A stretch of DNA of 64,000 bases from Gammaproteobacteria bacterium (GTDB taxonomy: Bacteria; Pseudomonadota; Gammaproteobacteria; Steroidobacterales; Steroidobacteraceae), in assembly GCA_021323735.1 (NCBI GenBank), contig JAJPKM010000036.1:186001-250000 (forward strand), read 5' to 3'. Shown in pieces: positions 22,720 to 31,890 of this stretch (positions are counted from its first letter, which is position 1; every line of letters begins with the position of its first letter). The notes below the pieces were generated by a model. The model searched no databases, was not told the DNA's origin, and saw only the letters and a program-made list of their open reading frames with translations. The translations under genes and the position numbers were made by a program.

Positions 22720-22793
22720 GCGGGCGTCGTATAATGGTAATACCCAAGCTTCCCAAGCTTGAGCCGTGGGTTCGATTCCCATCGCCCGCTCCA
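22720..22793 (+). tRNA. tRNA-Gly (CCC)
   Basis: A 74-nt cloverleaf. The acceptor arm is GCGGGCG paired with CGCCCGC, the D stem GTAT/ATAC, and the anticodon stem CAAGC/GCTTG around the loop TTCCCAA, giving anticodon CCC, which reads GGG. The T arm GTGGG-TTCGATT-CCCAT carries one G-T pair, the discriminator is T, and the CCA is encoded. The last 23 bp (22771-22793) are the sequence repeated three times downstream, so this gene is the attachment site of the array. Confidence 0.97.
22771..22793 (+). repeat. att core inside tRNA-Gly (array site 0)
   Basis: The 23-bp 3' part of the tRNA, from the T loop to CCA. The same sequence recurs at 25984, 27707 and 29671 on the same strand. In the usual mechanism, an integrating element brings a copy of the tRNA end, so the gene stays intact and the older end is displaced downstream. 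Confidence 0.85.
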
Positions 22794-22879
22794 AAACACC
22801 CCTTTAAGATCCGACCGCAAAGTCTACTTACTTGCGCAGGCAAGCACGGGTGCGCAAACATCGGCAGTGAGGTGCTGCC

Positions 22880-24628
22880 ATGTGGAAACGCAAACTTCCT
22901 GGTATTCCCCGGGTCCGCAAGTTGATGACCCGTAGTTTCAGGGGGTCGAAAACCCATCTTGGGGCCGATAAGCGAGACACAAATAGGGCGTGGGAAGTCG
23001 AAGCGATTCGAACAGTGCGGCATAAGATCTCGCGGATGCCGGTAGATCAGATAGCCCACACGTTGTTCGTCAGCCGTCTCCAGCCCCTCGCCGCAATGCT
23101 CGAAGATTCGGGCTGGCGTTCACCTTATAAGGCGCGCCATTACCTCATCAGTCTTGCAATGCAGACTCCCGTTCCAAAACGACCGCGAATCCTGTCGATC
23201 GAGGGTTGGATCTCCCCAGCAGCCACGGTCGGGAAAGTCATTGAGGCTTATGCCTCGCGGCTGGCGAGTTCCGACCAGAATGCCTGGCTCGCGTCGAGGG
23301 TATTCCATGACAGGGCGCTCAACCCACGCTTCATCGACATCGAGCAAGTGCAAGAGATCTGTCGGAAGTTCTTTGCTCAAATGTCAGCTGCCGAAAATGA
23401 TATTGGGCTTCCACTCAAAGTTGTTATGGAGGTATTTGATCACCTTGACAAGGTGATTGATCAACAGCTTAACGATCTTCAACAAGGACGCGGGCCGCCA
23501 CTGAATCGCGGCCAGGATCCGCTGCAGCACACGGCAGAGGCCCTCGCCTTGCGGATCTCCGAACTCGGCGTCCGGTTCGGTGGCGAAAATATTGCTACAT
23601 TGCTAAAGACTTTCGGATTAGTTCGAAAACAGCGCGATGATCGACTCTTTTTCTCAGATGAAGTCGGACATCCGACGCTAACTGAGGAGTATCCCCTGAT
23701 TGTGTCAGGCGACCACGTTTATGTTGGCGATATCAACGCGCTTTGGCTCGCATTGTACGGTCGACTCTTGCGCGCCTCTCGCGAGGAAGGGTGGAGCAAA
23801 CGGCGAGGCGAGTATGTCGAAGACAAGACCGCAGATATCCTTCGGAGACTATTTGGCGACGACGCTGTTCACCAACATGTTTGGGTGAAAAAAGGTGGCC
23901 CGGAGCACGATGCTATCGTCGTCATCGATGATGCGCTTGTCGTCGTGGAAACCAAGGGGGCTGCTGCCGTTCCTCCGATCACCTCCGATCATGCTATGAA
24001 CTTGCAGCGAATCCAGTCCCACGCCAAGACCTCGCAAAGCCCATTTAAGGGCATTGAGCAGGCTCAGAAATTGCTGCGGTATTTGGTGGCGAGTTCCAAG
24101 CCAATCACAGTGCGAGTCGGTGGTAAGGAGTGGAAGGACGGAGTACCACTTGAGCTTGATCCCCGAACCTTCAAACGCTATTTTGCGATCGTGGTTTCGC
24201 TGGAAGAATATGGTTCCCTGCTCACGGACTGGAGCATGTTGAACCTCGTTGACACTTCGTTCGGGAATCCGTGGGGCGTCAACCTGCATTCATTCGAGCA
24301 ATTTGCATGGGGAATCGAACGTCGCCGGTGGGACGGGCGCGATCTTCTCATTTACCTCGAGGATAGGTTGTTTTGCCACGGAGGCATGATCACGGGCGAC
24401 GAGTTAGACTATGCTGGTTACTGGCTCAACCAGGGAGATCTGGGCCCATTTTCCTGTCCTGGGATGTCATTTCAAGGGCGTAACTGGGCAAAAATATTTG
24501 ATGACCTTTGGTTGGAACGTCGCGGACTTGCTTGCGTCGAGTTTGAGTCAGCTGCCCGACCGAGCGCTGCACCTAAACGCGATCGAGCCGACGCTATGCG
24601 TGCCTTTATCAATCGGATTGTTTCCTGA
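22880..24628 (+). CDS. Predicted PD-(D/E)XK nuclease-like protein of cassette 1
   Basis: A 582-residue soluble protein that I do not recognise as a named family. Residues about 300-355 hold RRGEYVEDKTADILRRLFG, then DAIVVIDDALVVVETKG. The E...D...ExK pattern after two beta strands is the active-site layout of PD-(D/E)XK nucleases (NERD / restriction-like). The N-terminal 280 residues look helical, without obvious motifs, and could bind nucleic acid or a partner. GAGG lies 8 bp before the ATG at 22880. The gene follows the tRNA by 86 bp and is the only rightward gene of the cassette. A defence or element-maintenance role is inferred from context only. No methylase or helicase is adjacent. Confidence 0.6.
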   Translation: MWKRKLPGIPRVRKLMTRSFRGSKTHLGADKRDTNRAWEVEAIRTVRHKISRMPVDQIAHTLFVSRLQPLAAMLEDSGWRSPYKARHYLISLAMQTPVPKRPRILSIEGWISPAATVGKVIEAYASRLASSDQNAWLASRVFHDRALNPRFIDIEQVQEICRKFFAQMSAAENDIGLPLKVVMEVFDHLDKVIDQQLNDLQQGRGPPLNRGQDPLQHTAEALALRISELGVRFGGENIATLLKTFGLVRKQRDDRLFFSDEVGHPTLTEEYPLIVSGDHVYVGDINALWLALYGRLLRASREEGWSKRRGEYVEDKTADILRRLFGDDAVHQHVWVKKGGPEHDAIVVIDDALVVVETKGAAAVPPITSDHAMNLQRIQSHAKTSQSPFKGIEQAQKLLRYLVASSKPITVRVGGKEWKDGVPLELDPRTFKRYFAIVVSLEEYGSLLTDWSMLNLVDTSFGNPWGVNLHSFEQFAWGIERRRWDGRDLLIYLEDRLFCHGGMITGDELDYAGYWLNQGDLGPFSCPGMSFQGRNWAKIFDDLWLERRGLACVEFESAARPSAAPKRDRADAMRAFINRIVS

Positions 24629-24700
24629 GAGCCGTGGCTTGGTCGCATAAGCCATTTTTGTAAAGATGGCCCTGTGAGAAAAGTGCTCAGCCATTCGGGT

Positions 24701-25186
24701 TTAGCGCTTAACTTTTCTCCTGTCCGAAAGCTCGACTGCATATAATCGCATATCGAGCGTGACCGGCTCCTTAGATACCAGGCGCACGTCTTTGAATCGA
24801 TCATGTGCGGGATTCAGCATCAGGTTCCTCTCTTCCGAAGCGATCACGGAAGGAACGAGTATGCCGAGGCTCGATTTCGATGCCACCCAGGCATCGCCGA
24901 AGCGTTTGCTGGACGGGCCGGGGGGTAGCTTATTCCAGCCGCGCGGCAGGTCGTTCATCGTTACTTCTACGATGGAGTCATCCGGAATTTCAATGACGAA
25001 CTTCAATCGTGTGCGCGGGTAAGGATGCGGAGAATGAACCCGCAGTTCTAGCATGCCGAGGGACTCGTTCGTAGCGCAATACAGCACGGGAATTCCTTTG
25101 GTGTTCCAGCGCCCCCCGTTTCTACGAGCTCCTTCGGCCGACAGCCCGTCAGCAAATCTCGTCTTCGTGAATCGGTAGACCTTCAC
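24701..25186 (-). CDS. RES-domain toxin (NAD-degrading type)
   Basis: A 161-residue RES-domain protein. It shows the conserved Arg near the start (VYRFTKTRFADGLSAEGA), the GGRWNTKG motif (24-31), the Glu in LGMLELRVH (43-51) and a late SSLGILVPS (104-112). These contain the Arg, Arg/Glu and Ser residues of the ART-like active site. RES toxins (ParT, MbcT) break down NAD+ by phosphorolysis or hydrolysis, or ADP-ribosylate targets, and are silenced by Xre/MbcA/ParS antitoxins. The antitoxin gene ends 15 bp upstream, in the usual antitoxin-first order. Confidence 0.92.
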   Translation of the reverse strand: MKVYRFTKTRFADGLSAEGARRNGGRWNTKGIPVLYCATNESLGMLELRVHSPHPYPRTRLKFVIEIPDDSIVEVTMNDLPRGWNKLPPGPSSKRFGDAWVASKSSLGILVPSVIASEERNLMLNPAHDRFKDVRLVSKEPVTLDMRLYAVELSDRRKVKR

Positions 25187-25201
25187 AAAGGCGGCCGCAG
25201 A

Positions 25202-25735
25202 TCAAACAGGCAGCCCGTGTTCGATTGTGCCTAGTTCAGCGTGAACTACTTCATCGCCCTCTATCGTCGCCAATAGGTTAAGTGGCCGCGCTCCTCCCAA
25301 TGCTTCATTGGGTTCTTTGAGCCACTGGACTGCGTAACCAGTATCCTCGAACACGCTCACCGCGTGCACCAAGGCACGCGATACTCGATATAGAAGGTCG
25401 CTGTCCGCGCGTGAGAGCCGCTGTCGTTGAAGTAGTTCATTGAGAGTCTTTCTCGTACGTCCTAAGATGTCGCTGAACTCCTCTTTCGTTACGTCAAGAG
25501 CAGTCAGCAATGTCGGAATGGCTCTTCCCGGAATTCCGGCCTCGATTTCTCGATGAAGTTCGATGCCGCTCATTTCCTTTGCGCCACCAACATCAGCCAG
25601 TTGTCTCTCGATCCATCTCCGTACTGCAAACGGGTCGCCGCCGCTCCAACGCTTAGAGCCTCGATTGCGAAGCAAACCCAAGGCAACCCCGCTCACATTT
25701 GGCGGATCCATTATTTGAACTGCTGCCATTTTCAT
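25202..25735 (-). CDS. Xre/MbcA/ParS-family antitoxin
   Basis: A 177-residue antitoxin. The N-terminal half carries a helix-turn-helix-like stretch (about 75-115, TALDVTKEEFSDILGRTRKTL), and the C-terminal half is the MbcA/ParS/Xre toxin-binding domain, with SRALVHAVSVFED and AVQWLKEPNEALGGARPLNLL. The start at 25735 is fixed by GGAGG 5 bp before ATG-AAA-ATG; longer frames lack such a signal. It sits immediately upstream of the RES toxin and probably represses the pair through the inverted repeat at 25756-25780. The gene is the last in cassette 1. Confidence 0.9.
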   Translation of the reverse strand: MKMAAVQIMDPPNVSGVALGLLRNRGSKRWSGGDPFAVRRWIERQLADVGGAKEMSGIELHREIEAGIPGRAIPTLLTALDVTKEEFSDILGRTRKTLNELLQRQRLSRADSDLLYRVSRALVHAVSVFEDTGYAVQWLKEPNEALGGARPLNLLATIEGDEVVHAELGTIEHGLPV

Positions 25736-25755
25736 TACGTCCTCCAAGTGGCGTA

Positions 25756-25780
25756 ATTGTAACATATGACCCATTACAAT
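25756..25780. promoter_or_regulatory. Candidate ParS operator
   Basis: A perfect 7-bp inverted repeat ATTGTAA-N11-TTACAAT lies 21 bp upstream of the antitoxin start. On the minus strand the left arm includes TACAAT, a plausible -10 box, so binding there would block the promoter, as expected for an autoregulated pair. Confidence 0.6.
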
Positions 25781-25854
25781 GGGTAGATCTTCCCCGAATG
25801 ACACGCCACGAATAACAGAAACACTCGAAAGAGTACAGATCCGACCATCTCGTC

Positions 25855-26006
25855 GGTCCCCAATGGCCGCATTGGCTGGCATTGGTTCGTGTGGCGCCGT
25901 TTTTCGCACAAAATTCGCACGCAGCGCTCATCCGCACCTGTAACGCCATGATTCGAGAAGATTCGTAGCGCCCGAGCGATATATTCGATTCCCATCGCCC
26001 GCTCCA
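25855..26006 (+). repeat. Cassette end repeat, copy 1
   Basis: About 150 bp that starts with CCAATG-GCCG-CATTGG (25860-25875), a perfect 6-bp inverted repeat, and ends with the 23-bp tRNA core. It matches copies 2 and 3 in the first about 70 bp (GGCTGGC, TTGG, GTTTTTC, CACA, CGCACGCAG) and in the last 45 bp, but is the most diverged. It forms the right end of cassette 1, directly beside the ParS operator. Confidence 0.85.
25984..26006 (+). repeat. att core copy 1
   Basis: An exact 23-bp copy of the tRNA-Gly 3' end (TTCGATTCCC...GCTCCA). It is the boundary between cassettes 1 and 2, 3213 bp from the core in the tRNA. Confidence 0.9.
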
Positions 26007-26018
26007 CTTCCGGCCATC

Positions 26019-26034
26019 GCTGGCGAATGCCAGC
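26019..26034. repeat. Hairpin just after att copy 1
   Basis: GCTGGC-GAAT-GCCAGC is a perfect 6-bp stem with a GAAT loop, 12 bp after the core. A near-copy (GCCGGC-GAAT-GCCAGC, one mismatch) occupies the same place after att copy 3 (29706-29721). Copy 2 lacks it. Confidence 0.6.
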
Positions 26035-26078
26035 CAATGGGGCTCCTCTCGCTGGGGCACACAATCGTTGGCCCGCGT

Positions 26079-26112
26079 TCGCTGGCGTTGGCTGTGGTTT
26101 CACACGCAGTCT
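26079..26112 (+). repeat. Degenerate fragment of the end repeat
   Basis: CGCTGGCGTTGGCTGTGG followed by TTTCACACGCAGT parallels the GGCTGGCGTTGGCTCG ... TTTTTCACACA ... CGCACGCAG of copies 2 and 3, with an internal deletion. It lacks the CCAATG palindrome and the tRNA core, so it looks like the remains of an older junction. Confidence 0.4.
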
Positions 26113-26174
26113 TGCCCGTCTAACCGGGTTCGACCCTAACAGGCGGTCGCGACTGTCGGCTTTTCGGACCCAAA

Positions 26175-26822
26175 TTACCCGGGCCGCGGTCCTGATTGCT
26201 GTGGCAGTATCAAGATCTCGATCAATGTCGCAGTTGCTACGAGTTTGGGTCCCTCTTGAATGCGCCAGGACCGTCCAGATCGCAGTGCATCCATCAAACC
26301 TGGCCCGTTTAAAAACTCAATGTCCACTTCCTTGGACTCCCCCGGCAGTATCGACTCGCTTCTCGCGAACGTGATCGGAATGGCGCGGCCGGGGTCCCAG
26401 GGCACGTAATCGGGCTCTGGTCTTTTCTCCGTCCTAACAGGGTTACCGTTCGCATCCCGATCAAGGAAGTCCGGGCCATAAAACATATCTTTGCATTCTG
26501 GTGTGATCAAGACTTGGATCGCTGGTTGCCGGGCAACGTAATCAGCCGCTAATAGTTTACTTGGCCGGCAGACAAATTCGAGACCGTAAGGGTGCTTTGT
26601 CGAGCGGTCAAGCGTTGTGCCGCCGGAGGCCGTGATGAAATGTCCCGCCGCGCAAGTTTTCGCTATCTCGGCGTTGCAAGCGATTTCGGTGCGACAGCTC
26701 ACGCGATACACAGTGCTGCCCGCTCTTATCCCAATGGGTCGTGTTACGGCTGGGGGAGTACAGGCGGTCACCGTCAAGGAGCTAACGATTGCCACCACCC
26801 GAGCGAGTCCGACGAATCTCAT
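26175..26822 (-). CDS. Unknown lipoprotein of cassette 2
   Basis: A 215-residue protein with a lipobox (TVTAC, Cys at about 20) after a hydrophobic segment. The N-terminal mature part is Cys-rich, with YRVSCRTEIACNAEIAKTC, and the rest is beta-rich with several Pro/Asp segments. I recognise no domain. The ATG at 26822 is preferred because it begins the signal peptide; the longer frame adds nine residues. It is transcribed leftward, towards the first junction, like the toxin-antitoxin genes of cassettes 1 and 3. Function is unknown. Confidence 0.65.
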   Translation of the reverse strand: MRFVGLARVVAIVSSLTVTACTPPAVTRPIGIRAGSTVYRVSCRTEIACNAEIAKTCAAGHFITASGGTTLDRSTKHPYGLEFVCRPSKLLAADYVARQPAIQVLITPECKDMFYGPDFLDRDANGNPVRTEKRPEPDYVPWDPGRAIPITFARSESILPGESKEVDIEFLNGPGLMDALRSGRSWRIQEGPKLVATATLIEILILPQQSGPRPG

Positions 26823-27036
26823 ATGCGCTGCCTTCCGGTCGCAAGGCATATTAATTTAGCAGTTAACACAACCGAGCGGTGGGGTTCGCGTCCGTCGTCC
26901 TGAGGCTGGGACCGGCTAGCTTCTTCGTCGGACTCTGAACGGCTGCCATGGAGGGAGCAATTAGAACCTCGGACTGGCAGCCGTTGGCCGGGTGGGGACA
27001 GCGGTCGGCATTTCTGTGCAAATAGGCGACTATCCG

Positions 27037-27432
27037 ATGGGACGGCTCGCTTTTCTATTCGAGCTCACAACTGAGGAGTTTGCGAACTTGAAGTCGCGTT
27101 TTGCGACATCAAGTTGGGGTGGTCGCCGCAAACGCCCGATCGCCTTTACCGAGCACGGCGCGATCCAAGCCGCGACCATCCTTAACAGTCCTCGCGCGGT
27201 CGAAATGAGCGTCTACGTGGTCCGTGCTTTCGTGAAGCTACGTGAGGTGCTCAGTTCCAACCGAGAACTCGCTCGGCGCTTCGAACAGCTTGAGTCACGC
27301 CTGGATAGCAAGCTCACGGAGCATGACGAAGCCATCGCCGCGATCCTCTCGGCAATCCGCGAACTCATGCGGCCACGAGACCCGCCGCGTCGTGGCATCG
27401 GTTTCACCGCCAAGCTGGCCGACGATAGCTAG
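27037..27432 (+). pseudogene. ORF6N-domain protein, 5'-truncated
   Basis: About 130 residues are readable. They start in the middle of the ORF6N DNA-binding domain (FELTTEEFANLKSRFATSSWGGRR, then the conserved PIAFTEHGAIQAATILNS and AVEMSVYVVRAFVKLREVL) and continue through a charged coiled coil to GIGFTAK. Family members have about 45-60 more N-terminal residues (the strand with an ADLAALYGV-type motif) that are missing here. No frame upstream supplies them, so the gene appears beheaded, not frameshifted. ORF6N proteins occur on phages and mobile elements, as expected in cassette 2. Confidence 0.7.
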
Positions 27433-27567
27433 TAACTACTCAGTCGATCGCACGCCCGTTCTCAAGAAGCCTGTTGGCGAGAACGACCATGGTGATGGAC
27501 TCGCGGGATTCGCAATATTCTTGAGTCACACGCCAATCACGTGCCGTCGAGTACGCTTGCTATGACC

Positions 27568-27728
27568 GCTTGGGCAGGGTCTCCCAATGGCCGCATTGGC
27601 TGGCGTTGGCTCGCATGGCATCGTTTTTCACACAAAAATCGCACGCAGCTCCCGTTGCGTTTGCAACTTCGTGATTCCAAAAGGCGAGTGCGCGCCAGCG
27701 ATATTCTCGATTCCCATCGCCCGCTCCA
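27568..27728 (+). repeat. Cassette end repeat, copy 2
   Basis: About 161 bp ending in the tRNA core, including CCAATG-GCCG-CATTGG (27583-27598). By eye it differs from copy 3 at about 12 positions. The section CTTGCAACTTCGTGATTCC (as TTTGCAAC... here) and GCGAGTGCGCGCCAGCG is shared with copy 3 and absent or changed in copy 1. Confidence 0.88.
27707..27728 (+). repeat. att core copy 2
   Basis: Twenty-two of the 23 core bases are exact; the first T is replaced by C. It separates cassette 2 (1722 bp) from cassette 3. Confidence 0.9.
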
Positions 27729-27752
27729 CTCACCGCTTGTGGGCCACAAGCC

Positions 27753-29132
27753 TCAATTGAGGAGCTTTTCGGCCCCGCGCAAGAACTCCTCGGCCTTCTT
27801 CGCGAACCCGTCCGTCACGCTGGTCCACACTGATTCTTTCAAGTCCGGCGGCAATCGCCTTTCTACTGATGCTATCGCCTCCGGCACTGACCTGGCAGTG
27901 TCGAGCATCTTCGACCAGAGGTCGGGGTCCGGCAGGGATTGCGCAAGTACCTTGAAATGGCGGGGCTGAATCTCGTTCCACCTGTAATGGGGTCGGTTTC
28001 CGGTGCGCATCGCCATTGCCATTTTGACTTTCTGCGGCTGTAGCTGGCGGGCCTTTTTTCCAATAACCGGCCACGCGGATAGTAGATCGTAGAGGGGCGT
28101 CATCCCATAGCCCTTACGACGCAGGAAGATGGAGAAATTCTTCGCATGCCCGTCCGTGGCCGCGAGGAACCAGAACATGAGCTGCGAGAGAGCAAAGAGG
28201 CTGCTGTCACGCTCAGGTGTTTCGCTGCGGGCAAGAATTCTCAGGATCTGCGTCATGCCAGGACCGCCGTCCTTCTCATACTTTGCATCTGAGGGCTGGC
28301 CGGTTGCCTGGCAGAAATCCTCCTGCGGAAGTCGCGTGATCCAGGCATCCGAGGGCGGCTTGAATCGCGCCGCGTTCGGATCAAGAGTGCCGATATTGCT
28401 CCAGCGACGATCGAAGCGCTCGACTACGAGCACGCGCTGATCGCCGAACGTCGCGATCTGGGTATGAGCGACGGGTAACTGTATGGCTTCGAACAACGCC
28501 GCACACAGCCACTCGTTATCTACTGAGTCGGACAAATCCAGCTGCAGCCCGCCACCGACGATGCCAAGCGGGAGCTTCAGAATATGAGTCGTGGGCGTAG
28601 CCCCAAGCGGGCGATGCCAAGCGTTGCCGATGCGAAGCAGCGCTGTCTTCTCCTGCGCCCCGGCAATTGAGATGCGAAAGTCCTCATCGTCCTCGAATTG
28701 GGTGCCGAGCGGGCTGGCCGTCGTCGGGACCGCGCGCAGGACCGCCTCGACGTCTTGTGCTTTGAGCAATTTCGATTCGATCCGGTCCCACCCGATCGGA
28801 GTCCGTCCCGGCGGCATCAACTGCACCGCACCCACGCAGTCGCGCCCTATTGCCTCCAGAAGGTCGAAAGTTTCGGTAGATCGAAGGTGGTACCGGCTGC
28901 GCATTCTTTCCCGGATTTGCGAATTGTCCGGCAGCAGGTTGTCGAAGTAATTGCGGACGAGGGGAGATGTGATTTCCCGCGATGCTGTAACTGGCAGCGA
29001 TAGGGACAGCGGTCGAAACTGCGGATCCTCCAGCCAGGCTTGTTCGTAGACAAACTGATCGCGGTCGCCGCGGACTTTCCGCCACACCCCGACGTGACGA
29101 CCGTTCATCCAGACATCAAGTGCATTCACCAC
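27753..29132 (-). CDS. hipA: HipA-family serine/threonine kinase toxin
   Basis: A 459-residue protein with the HipA layout. An N-terminal subdomain (LDVWMNGRHVGVWRKV, SLPVT) comes first, then the region around GAQEKTALLRI with the Ser/Thr-rich loop TPTTHILKLP, the catalytic DGHAKNFSIF segment (Asp about 325), and the Mg-binding YDLLSAWP. HipA kinases phosphorylate aminoacyl-tRNA synthetases such as GltX and induce dormancy. The start is GTG at 29132, which overlaps the 3' end of hipB by 7 bp. It is the main gene of cassette 3. Confidence 0.93.
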   Translation of the reverse strand: MVNALDVWMNGRHVGVWRKVRGDRDQFVYEQAWLEDPQFRPLSLSLPVTASREITSPLVRNYFDNLLPDNSQIRERMRSRYHLRSTETFDLLEAIGRDCVGAVQLMPPGRTPIGWDRIESKLLKAQDVEAVLRAVPTTASPLGTQFEDDEDFRISIAGAQEKTALLRIGNAWHRPLGATPTTHILKLPLGIVGGGLQLDLSDSVDNEWLCAALFEAIQLPVAHTQIATFGDQRVLVVERFDRRWSNIGTLDPNAARFKPPSDAWITRLPQEDFCQATGQPSDAKYEKDGGPGMTQILRILARSETPERDSSLFALSQLMFWFLAATDGHAKNFSIFLRRKGYGMTPLYDLLSAWPVIGKKARQLQPQKVKMAMAMRTGNRPHYRWNEIQPRHFKVLAQSLPDPDLWSKMLDTARSVPEAIASVERRLPPDLKESVWTSVTDGFAKKAEEFLRGAEKLLN

Positions 29133-29386
29133 TCACCTCGAGGGTGGTTTTCAATTTCGTGTGGCGTCGGCTTAAGGTGTAATAGCACTTCCACACCCAG
29201 CGCAGCGAAAAGGTTCAGGAGCTGAGCAGTGGAGACCGTCTCGGGATGCCTTTCGATATCTGCGAGGCGTGACTGGCCAATTCCCAATCGTCTGGCGAGC
29301 TGAGCTTGGGTAAGCCCTCGCGTCTTACGTAAGGACTTCAAATGCGCCGGAAGTTGCGTTGGCGAATGCAATAATAGGGTGTTCAT
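29126..29386 (-). CDS. hipB: HipB-like Xre antitoxin
   Basis: An 86-residue protein with a single Xre helix-turn-helix (about 18-70, LRKTRGLTQAQLARRLGIGQSRLADIE), as in HipB. It silences HipA and represses the operon. GGAGG lies 7 bp before the ATG at 29386, and the gene overlaps hipA. It is preceded by two TATC/TATG-N10-GATA sites (29411-29455) and then by cassette end repeat copy 3. Confidence 0.9.
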   Translation of the reverse strand: MNTLLLHSPTQLPAHLKSLRKTRGLTQAQLARRLGIGQSRLADIERHPETVSTAQLLNLFAALGVEVLLHLKPTPHEIENHPRGEW

Positions 29387-29410
29387 GATGAACCCTCCTT
29401 GTATCAACTT

Positions 29411-29455
29411 TATCGCCTAAAGCAGATATTTTCAATATATGGCTTATAACAGATA
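29411..29455. promoter_or_regulatory. HipB-type tandem operators
   Basis: TATC-N10-GATA (29411-29428) and TATG-N10-GATA (29438-29455) share the spacing of the known HipB operator TATCC-N8-GGATA. They lie 25-70 bp upstream of the hipB start. On the minus strand, TTGAAA and TAAAGT (17 bp apart) could be the promoter, with the first site covering the -10 box. Confidence 0.55.
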
Positions 29456-29531
29456 AATGTCAAAAATCACCTTTGAGCGATAGAAGCAGCCTATAACCCC
29501 GCTTACCGATCGGAGAAAATGACTTGATCCG

Positions 29532-29693
29532 GCTTGGGCAGCGTCTCCCAATGGCCGCATTGGCTGGCGTTGGCTCGTATTGCATCGTTTTTCACACAAT
29601 AATCGCACGCAGCGCCTGTCGCGCTTGCAACTTCGTGATTCCAAAAAGCGAGTGCGCGCCAGCGGTATTTTTCGATTCCCATCGCCCGCTCCA
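29532..29693 (+). repeat. Cassette end repeat, copy 3
   Basis: About 162 bp, nearly the same as copy 2, including CCAATG-GCCG-CATTGG (29548-29563) and the tRNA core at its right end. It is the right end of cassette 3, beyond the hip promoter. Confidence 0.88.
29671..29693 (+). repeat. att core copy 3
   Basis: An exact 23-bp copy of the tRNA-Gly 3' end, 1965 bp after copy 2. It is the last intact core in the window. Confidence 0.9.
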
Positions 29694-29792
29694 CTTTCCG
29701 CCATCGCCGGCGAATGCCAGCCAACTCGATCTGCGTGCACACAGGATATTGATGTCCTGAATAACCTGGTTGGGGTTGGCTGGGCGCGTCAG

Positions 29793-30440
29793 CTATCGCC
29801 ACTCATTGCCTGGCATTACGCGCTTCATGAACTCATCAAACATGGGAGCTGTAAATGCGGTGTCGCCATGATTGGGACTCCACACCATACCCTTTGCGAT
29901 AAGCGAACTACGCGTCGGTGCAAGCGATGAAACAACAGCATCGAATGACTCAGCAATGTCGCCCGATCGGTGTGGCCCCGCCCCGAGTTCCGCCATTGCG
30001 CGCAGATATTTTTTCTCTTTAGGCGTGAGTCTATCGAATCGTACCCGAAAGAAGCTTTCGTCCAGCGCCGCTATGGCCGTAACCGACGCCTGGCGTACGA
30101 CGCTTGGCAATATTGGTGATTGCGTGGCAGCCAGCCACGTATGACTTCCCCATTCTTGCAGGAAATATGCGTAGCCCTGAGTGAGTTGAAGAATGAGGTC
30201 CATTGACTCAGTCGTGATGCTGACGCCTTCGCTGGAAAGAGGTTTCTCGATTGCCAATCTGGCAGCATCCGGAGGCAGGGCGCCGACGACGGGGAAGTCA
30301 AACAGCCTTTCGGCGTAAGATTTCGCGTTCCCCATCTGCCCTCGCAACTGCGGGAGCCCGGCACCGACCAACACGACGGGAAGCCGTCGTTGTTCGGTGC
30401 GATGCATCGCGGTTATCAGGACAGCCAGTTGGGGCTCCTC
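29793..30440 (-). pseudogene. AAA-family ATP-binding protein, 5'-truncated
   Basis: The readable part (about 205-215 residues) is the C-terminal half of a common bacterial AAA/ORC-like ATPase family: LEEPQLAVLITAMHR, LPVVLVGAGLPQLRGQ, AKSYAERLFDFP, GYAYFLQEWGSHTW and AALDESFFRVRFDRLTPKE are all family hallmarks. The Walker A and B parts that should precede them are missing. Upstream in frame only a short stretch without family similarity precedes a stop. The first ATG (30407) lies inside the domain. It is therefore a fragment left by a recombination event at about 30440, beside the ECF sigma operon. Confidence 0.7.
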
Positions 30441-31842: not shown

Positions 31843-31890
31843 CCAATGGCCGCATTGGCCGGCGTTGGGTTGGCGGCAGTTTCTTGCTTA
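31843..31890 (+). repeat. Degenerate fourth copy of the end repeat
   Basis: CCAATG-GCCG-CATTGG (31843-31858), followed by CCGGCGTTGGG and a TTTCTTGC stretch, parallels the first half of the end repeat. No tRNA core follows. It begins 3 bp after the stop of the sigma-partner gene. Confidence 0.55.

Follow-up and report, generated by a model that had tools for sequence, protein, structure and literature searches.

CIMEs (cis-mobilizable elements) are known as tandem, integrase-less units bounded by att sites (PMC5704250). In Dehalococcoides, 15 tandem islands without integration modules are found at ssrA (PMC3146451). The available passages of the reports on fGI-2 of Methylophilaceae (PMC10872708) and fGI1 of Alteromonas (PMC4119200) describe islands of tRNA-targeted cassettes that contain repeated copies of the final 20 nt of tRNA-Lys. 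While tRNA-delimited cassette islands and CIMEs are thus known, integrase-free, integron-like arrays with a conserved site architecture look like a new form of them. Here we describe such an array within a window of 64,000 nt from a Gammaproteobacterium of the family Steroidobacteraceae (assembly GCA_021323735.1, contig JAJPKM010000036.1, positions 186,001 to 250,000). Its genome is termed G000, other G numbers denote relatives from the same family, and the assemblies compared are drafts.

The window harbours a tRNA-Gly(CCC) gene whose last 23 bp (22771-22793) recur downstream as three cores, each of them the exact end of one copy of a ~160 bp repeat (Table 1). The core of the second copy has 1 mismatch, and in 100 shuffled sequences no core match occurred. 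All three copies lie where an earlier note on this DNA had placed them in front of the tRNA ends. Repeats of 140-160 bp are improbable by chance (E between 1e-28 and 1e-79). Aligned over 162 columns, copies 2 and 3 show 11 mismatches and 1 gap, close to the about 12 of 161 positions counted by eye in that note, whereas copy 1, described there as more diverged, is ~75-80% identical to both. The word CCAATGGCCGCATTGG is present exactly in 3/3 copies and once more at 31843, where no core follows; on its own a word this short could well arise by chance, as ~1.2 near matches are expected per window. Two minus-strand ORFs crossing the cores (27537-27749 and 29503-29802) are spurious, their false peptide 'ERAMGIE..' being antisense to the tRNA ends.

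Table 1. Features of the tRNA-Gly array in the window and of related loci in other genomes of the family. IHF sites are predictions.
Feature	Position	Strand	Content or basis
tRNA-Gly(CCC), anchor (attB)	22720..22793	+	ARAGORN, Rfam, core scan
Cassette 1	22794..25983		582-aa ORF, RES toxin and Xre antitoxin (Pfam)
582-aa ORF, cassette 1	22880-24628	+	matches nothing in Pfam, PADLOC, PHROGs or NCBIfam
RES toxin, cassette 1	24701-25186	-	Pfam
Xre antitoxin, cassette 1	25202-25909	-	Pfam
Right end 1 (attR-like)	25855..26006	+	arm repeats 25865-25895; CACACG-type pair 25900-25926
Right end 1, predicted IHF site	25941-25953	-	consensus with 1 mismatch; core then 25984-26006
Left end, cassette 2	26007..26130	+	inverted arm sites ~26013-26039; distal arm and CACACG 26080-26109
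Cassette 2	26007..27705		lipoprotein-like ORF 26175-26849 (-); ORF6N-domain ORF 26992-27432 (+) (Pfam)
Right end 2	27568..27728	+	arm repeats 27589-27619; CACACG pair 27624-27649; core 27706-27728
Right end 2, predicted IHF site	27664-27676	-	consensus
Cassette 3	27729..29670		HipA 27753-29132 (-); HipB 29126-29407 (-) (Pfam)
Right end 3	29532..29693	+	arm repeats 29553-29583; CACACG pair 29588-29613; core 29671-29693
Right end 3, predicted IHF site	29628-29640	-	consensus
Left end of fourth, decayed cassette	29694..29790	+	inverted arm sites 29700-29724; distal arm ~29767-29790
Arm-only remnant CCAATGGCCGCATTGGCCGGCGTTGG, no core	31843..31868	+	probable right end of cassette 4, decayed
VapBC cassette	G161:C69 (L160:9349-10077); G164:C188 (L154/L155)		
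Different end class at tRNA-Gly	G012:C3 (L164), G078:C7 (L165), G100, G179		e.g. 874-bp acetyltransferase cassette

The anatomy of the right end was derived from 47 right ends of all genera, read towards the core, whereby not every end shows all features. It starts with arm-type direct repeats spaced by ~10 bp, which come in two types, TTGGCTGGCGTTGGCT or the unrelated CCCTACGTAGCCC. Class A, to which the window belongs, reads GCATTGGCTG GCGTTGGCTG GTGTGGC and class B, as in G164, ATCCCTACGT AGCCCTACGT GGCCCCACAT; at a lag of 10 the arms show 14/21 and 19/25 matches. The two classes are unrelated in their arm sequences and share the positions of all that follows: a CACACG-n5-CACACG pair at about -79 and -68 from the core and, on the minus strand, a sequence fitting the IHF consensus WATCARNNNNTTR. 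With at most 1 mismatch, this consensus lies exactly at -43 in 21/47 right ends, compared with no more than 2 at any offset in shuffled sequences. It falls within -42 to -47 in 25 of the 47 and at -52 in one further end. Behind the IHF match follows the core, which, like the identity with the tRNA, begins at the TTCGATT of the T-loop.

In left ends, these arm words recur in inverted orientation within ~35 bp of the core, and a second arm and CACACG lie further in. Their conservation extends over 125-190 bp, and that of cassette 2 is shared over 125 bp with left ends of related genomes. In the scorable subset of both classes, inverted arm-type repeats flank the core on both sides. Some cores have no recognisable arms and others are degenerate (3-4 mismatches). 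With many cassettes unscorable for the pairing of their left and right classes, one B/A mismatch was seen.

The order of these elements is the one of lambda attR/attL, namely arms, Xis sites, IHF H2 and core. The repeat very probably represents the element-side (P-arm) half of a tyrosine-integrase attachment site that ends each tRNA-Gly cassette. Integrase arm sites had been among the explanations considered for the long shared end, and the spaced direct arm repeats, the IHF consensus fixed relative to the core and the inverted arms opposite fit this reading. Judged by consensus and position, the arm, IHF and Xis sites are putative; taking CACACG for an excisionase site is a guess from its place in the order. 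Three IHF/HU-type genes are present in the own genome.

Searches with DNA and models in the family's 217 genomes detected end plus core in up to 16, with strong matches in G061, G164, G153 and G161 and weaker ones in G033, G124, G088, G001, G039, G019, G081, G137, G187, G176 and G083. Full matches in family genomes all end in the tRNA-Gly core. Moreover, the strict pattern CACACG..CACACG..TTCGA occurs nine times in the 217 genomes, 9/9 at tRNA-Gly cores, and reversed-pattern controls yielded none. No match was obtained in 396 genomes of the order outside the family or in class samples of 321-369 genomes.

Core to core, ~41 cassettes could be delimited across 18 arrays, with a median length of ~1.8 kb; three of them stem from a genus whose ends are of another type, and 3-4 mismatches are present in a few cores. 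Each cassette is bounded on both sides by 23-bp tRNA-Gly cores, i.e. by att repeats of the target gene, and the cassettes are stacked in tandem. G164 has a stretch of 61 kb behind its tRNA-Gly in which 14 further cores occur at intervals of 0.7-10.5 kb. Many cassettes are only 0.8-2 kb long and consist of a single gene or a toxin-antitoxin pair, with the conserved ends lying close to the genes. Among the matches listed, which cover the 25 commonest families in the scan of cassette ORFs, the cargo comprises PIN/VapC, HipAB, RES/Xre, BrnT, alpha/beta hydrolases, acetyltransferases and single metabolic genes. An enolase gene is located within the G164 array (G164:C188, L154:2672-3988), and one long cassette of that array contains a transposase and AAA ATPase module (G164:C188, L154:14864-17217). 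IS21-family transposases were also found among the cassette ORFs (NCBIfam).

The conserved tRNA is a repeated insertion target, and the cassettes differ between species. One cassette has moved between species: in G161 and G164, the copies of a VapBC cassette share 99.0% identity over 729 bp, whereas the homologous chromosomal flanks reach 68-83%. It holds position 1 in G161, adjoining the tRNA, and position 9 in G164. G061 possesses a cassette homologous to HipAB of the window (80% over 1681 bp).

A tyrosine recombinase (PF00589), intact or broken, was found in none of the cassettes with these ends, using a profile iterated on local integrases. Since the cassettes encode no integrase, we infer recombination in trans. 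This agrees with the earlier suggestion of a recombination signal used in trans. Most probably the units are non-autonomous (CIME-like or additive-island) cassettes that are recombined in trans by a putative integrase of the Int/IHF type.

The following scheme would account for the array. A tyrosine-integrase system would insert DNA into the T-loop and 3' end of tRNA-Gly(CCC). One half-site of the element would present the direct arm repeats for the integrase, the CACACG pair in the place of lambda Xis, the IHF bend at -43 and the crossover core, and the other half-site with its inverted arms would form the start of the following cassette. In circular form (P arm - core - P' arm), a cassette could recombine with the tRNA core or with a core already present, whereby the 3' end of the tRNA would be regenerated and cassettes would stack head to tail. 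A helper in trans, be it an ICE, a phage, a plasmid or a chromosomal integrase, would recognise the shared ends. This helper, the proteins binding each site and any current activity are inferred. In addition, we tentatively consider a family-specific, tRNA-anchored and integron-like mode of capture, with Int/Xis/IHF-ended cassettes, at least two arm classes and dedicated integrases that would act only in trans to insert cassettes at tRNA-Gly(CCC) and to excise them.

Alternatively, the cassettes could be decayed islands that were inserted serially, each once equipped with its own related integrase, which was lost later (classical CIME decay plus accretion). CIMEs are indeed decayed ICEs or IMEs that have retained their att sites (PMC5704250), and the degenerate cores and ends noted above would suit such a history. 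A relative from genus g12 moreover offers an example of an integrase-bearing island at the same tRNA, though with another end type: in G012 the integrase lies inside an island of 11.7 kb. Its sister species G078, G100 and G179 possess cassettes of 0.9-3.2 kb with ends similar to those of G012 and no integrase. Island and sister cassettes could plausibly serve as a local model in which one partner is autonomous and the others are not. However, not even a remnant of an integrase was detected in the ~41 cassettes from some 18 genomes, and many cassettes are single-gene or toxin-antitoxin units of 0.8-2 kb in which both ends are conserved close to the genes. Serial decay therefore seems unlikely.

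A chromosomal, family-specific integrase running the array as an integron platform appears rather improbable, too. The restriction of the architecture to one family would speak for it, and so would a 338-aa recombinase that is at least 85% identical in G000, G164, G161 and G061, which are 4/5 of the genomes with strong class A ends. Yet G153 does not have this protein, G033 has only Xer-like genes and one weak match, and apart from Xer types no recombinase is shared by all array genomes. Furthermore, Pfam detects no arm-binding domain in the 338-aa recombinase, and its genomic contexts are unrelated. It offers a lead at most. We also scanned ~40-50 integrase loci of the own genome and four relatives for arms of class A or B, CACACG pairs and cores. 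None of these loci combines an integrase with matching arms, so the enzyme is unproven. The own genome contains three tandem tyrosine recombinase genes (G000:C8:57784-60172; L008, L010, L014), and a similar set of at least three exists in G153:C53. It also encodes an integron integrase on another contig (G000:C41:66145-66741, L009:1453-2439; TIGR02249, 445 bits). This gene was rejected as the enzyme of the array, being unlinked to it and having no counterpart of IntI length in G164, which has the largest array.

The earlier note had named the palindrome CCAATG-GCCG-CATTGG in describing the repeat and listed a folded RNA among the possible explanations. A folded RNA or a single-stranded, attC-like recombination hairpin on this palindrome is very improbable. 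The palindrome is perfect in all three window copies, including the diverged copy 1, but it decays in relatives: in ten other copies 39/60 pairs of the stem are retained, compared with 37.7 for shuffled arms (P 0.30). No covariation was seen with RNAalifold (covariation term 0.08), folding is no better than that of shuffled sequences (z-scores -1.8 to +1.3), and Rfam matches nothing except the tRNA. An integron integrase is encoded in G000, but no IntI-type match of ~600 nt exists in G164. The right half of the palindrome is part of the arm repeat, and the palindrome is incidental. Of the explanations first offered, arm sites and a signal used in trans fit, and the folded RNA is not supported.

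That the repeat is a common dispersed element unrelated to tRNA ends, for which the single arm-only copy at 31843 might speak, can practically be dismissed: in the own genome (4.19 Mb) the three window copies are the only full-length ones and the two other matches are this remnant and the tRNA end itself, while the exact 17-mer CCAATGGCCGCATTGGC, found in 108 stretches of 84,980 GTDB species genomes, in no case continues into the repeat or shares flanking similarity. The GTDB hits are thus chance words, and phages, plasmids and viral contigs led to the same rejection. The genome-wide search proposed in the earlier note places the repeat at tRNA ends, so the outcome named there as a refutation did not arise, and the repeat is confirmed with one correction, namely that the palindrome is not what is conserved.

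Stacking of cassettes at tRNA genes is usually spotted via the repeated tRNA ends alone, whereas here the full attachment site is legible across genera. Its architecture can serve as a search tool for integrase-free cassettes and leads to the concrete prediction of a trans-acting integrase. The arrays would represent a second route, besides integrons, to gather cargo of small size, for instance toxin-antitoxin pairs, in a single place.

Like CIMEs and the ssrA islands, the cassettes of the window are integrase-less, att-bounded and arranged in tandem. Compared with CIMEs, they are much smaller and occur in far larger numbers (up to 14), have no integrase-bearing neighbour that we could see, and show a conserved arm/IHF architecture at both ends; a parent ICE or IME was not found for the tRNA-Gly cassettes. 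With additive fGIs, as far as the passages at hand describe them, they share a conserved tRNA as insertion target, and those passages on Methylophilaceae and Alteromonas do not mention shared cassette ends of 140-190 bp as present here. The succession of arms, X-like sites, H2-like IHF site and core with inverted arms on the far side resembles lambda, but the target is the T-loop of a tRNA, the arm sequences differ and the integrase would reside outside the element. As in integrons, small gene and toxin-antitoxin cassettes form a recombinase-free array at one anchor; unlike in integrons, there is no intI at the array, the anchor is a tRNA and the sites are seemingly double-stranded and of the Int/IHF type instead of attC. 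Taken together, the new aspects of this system appear to be the high number of units and their small size, the consistent absence of integrases across genera and the conserved ends of the Int/IHF type in two arm classes.
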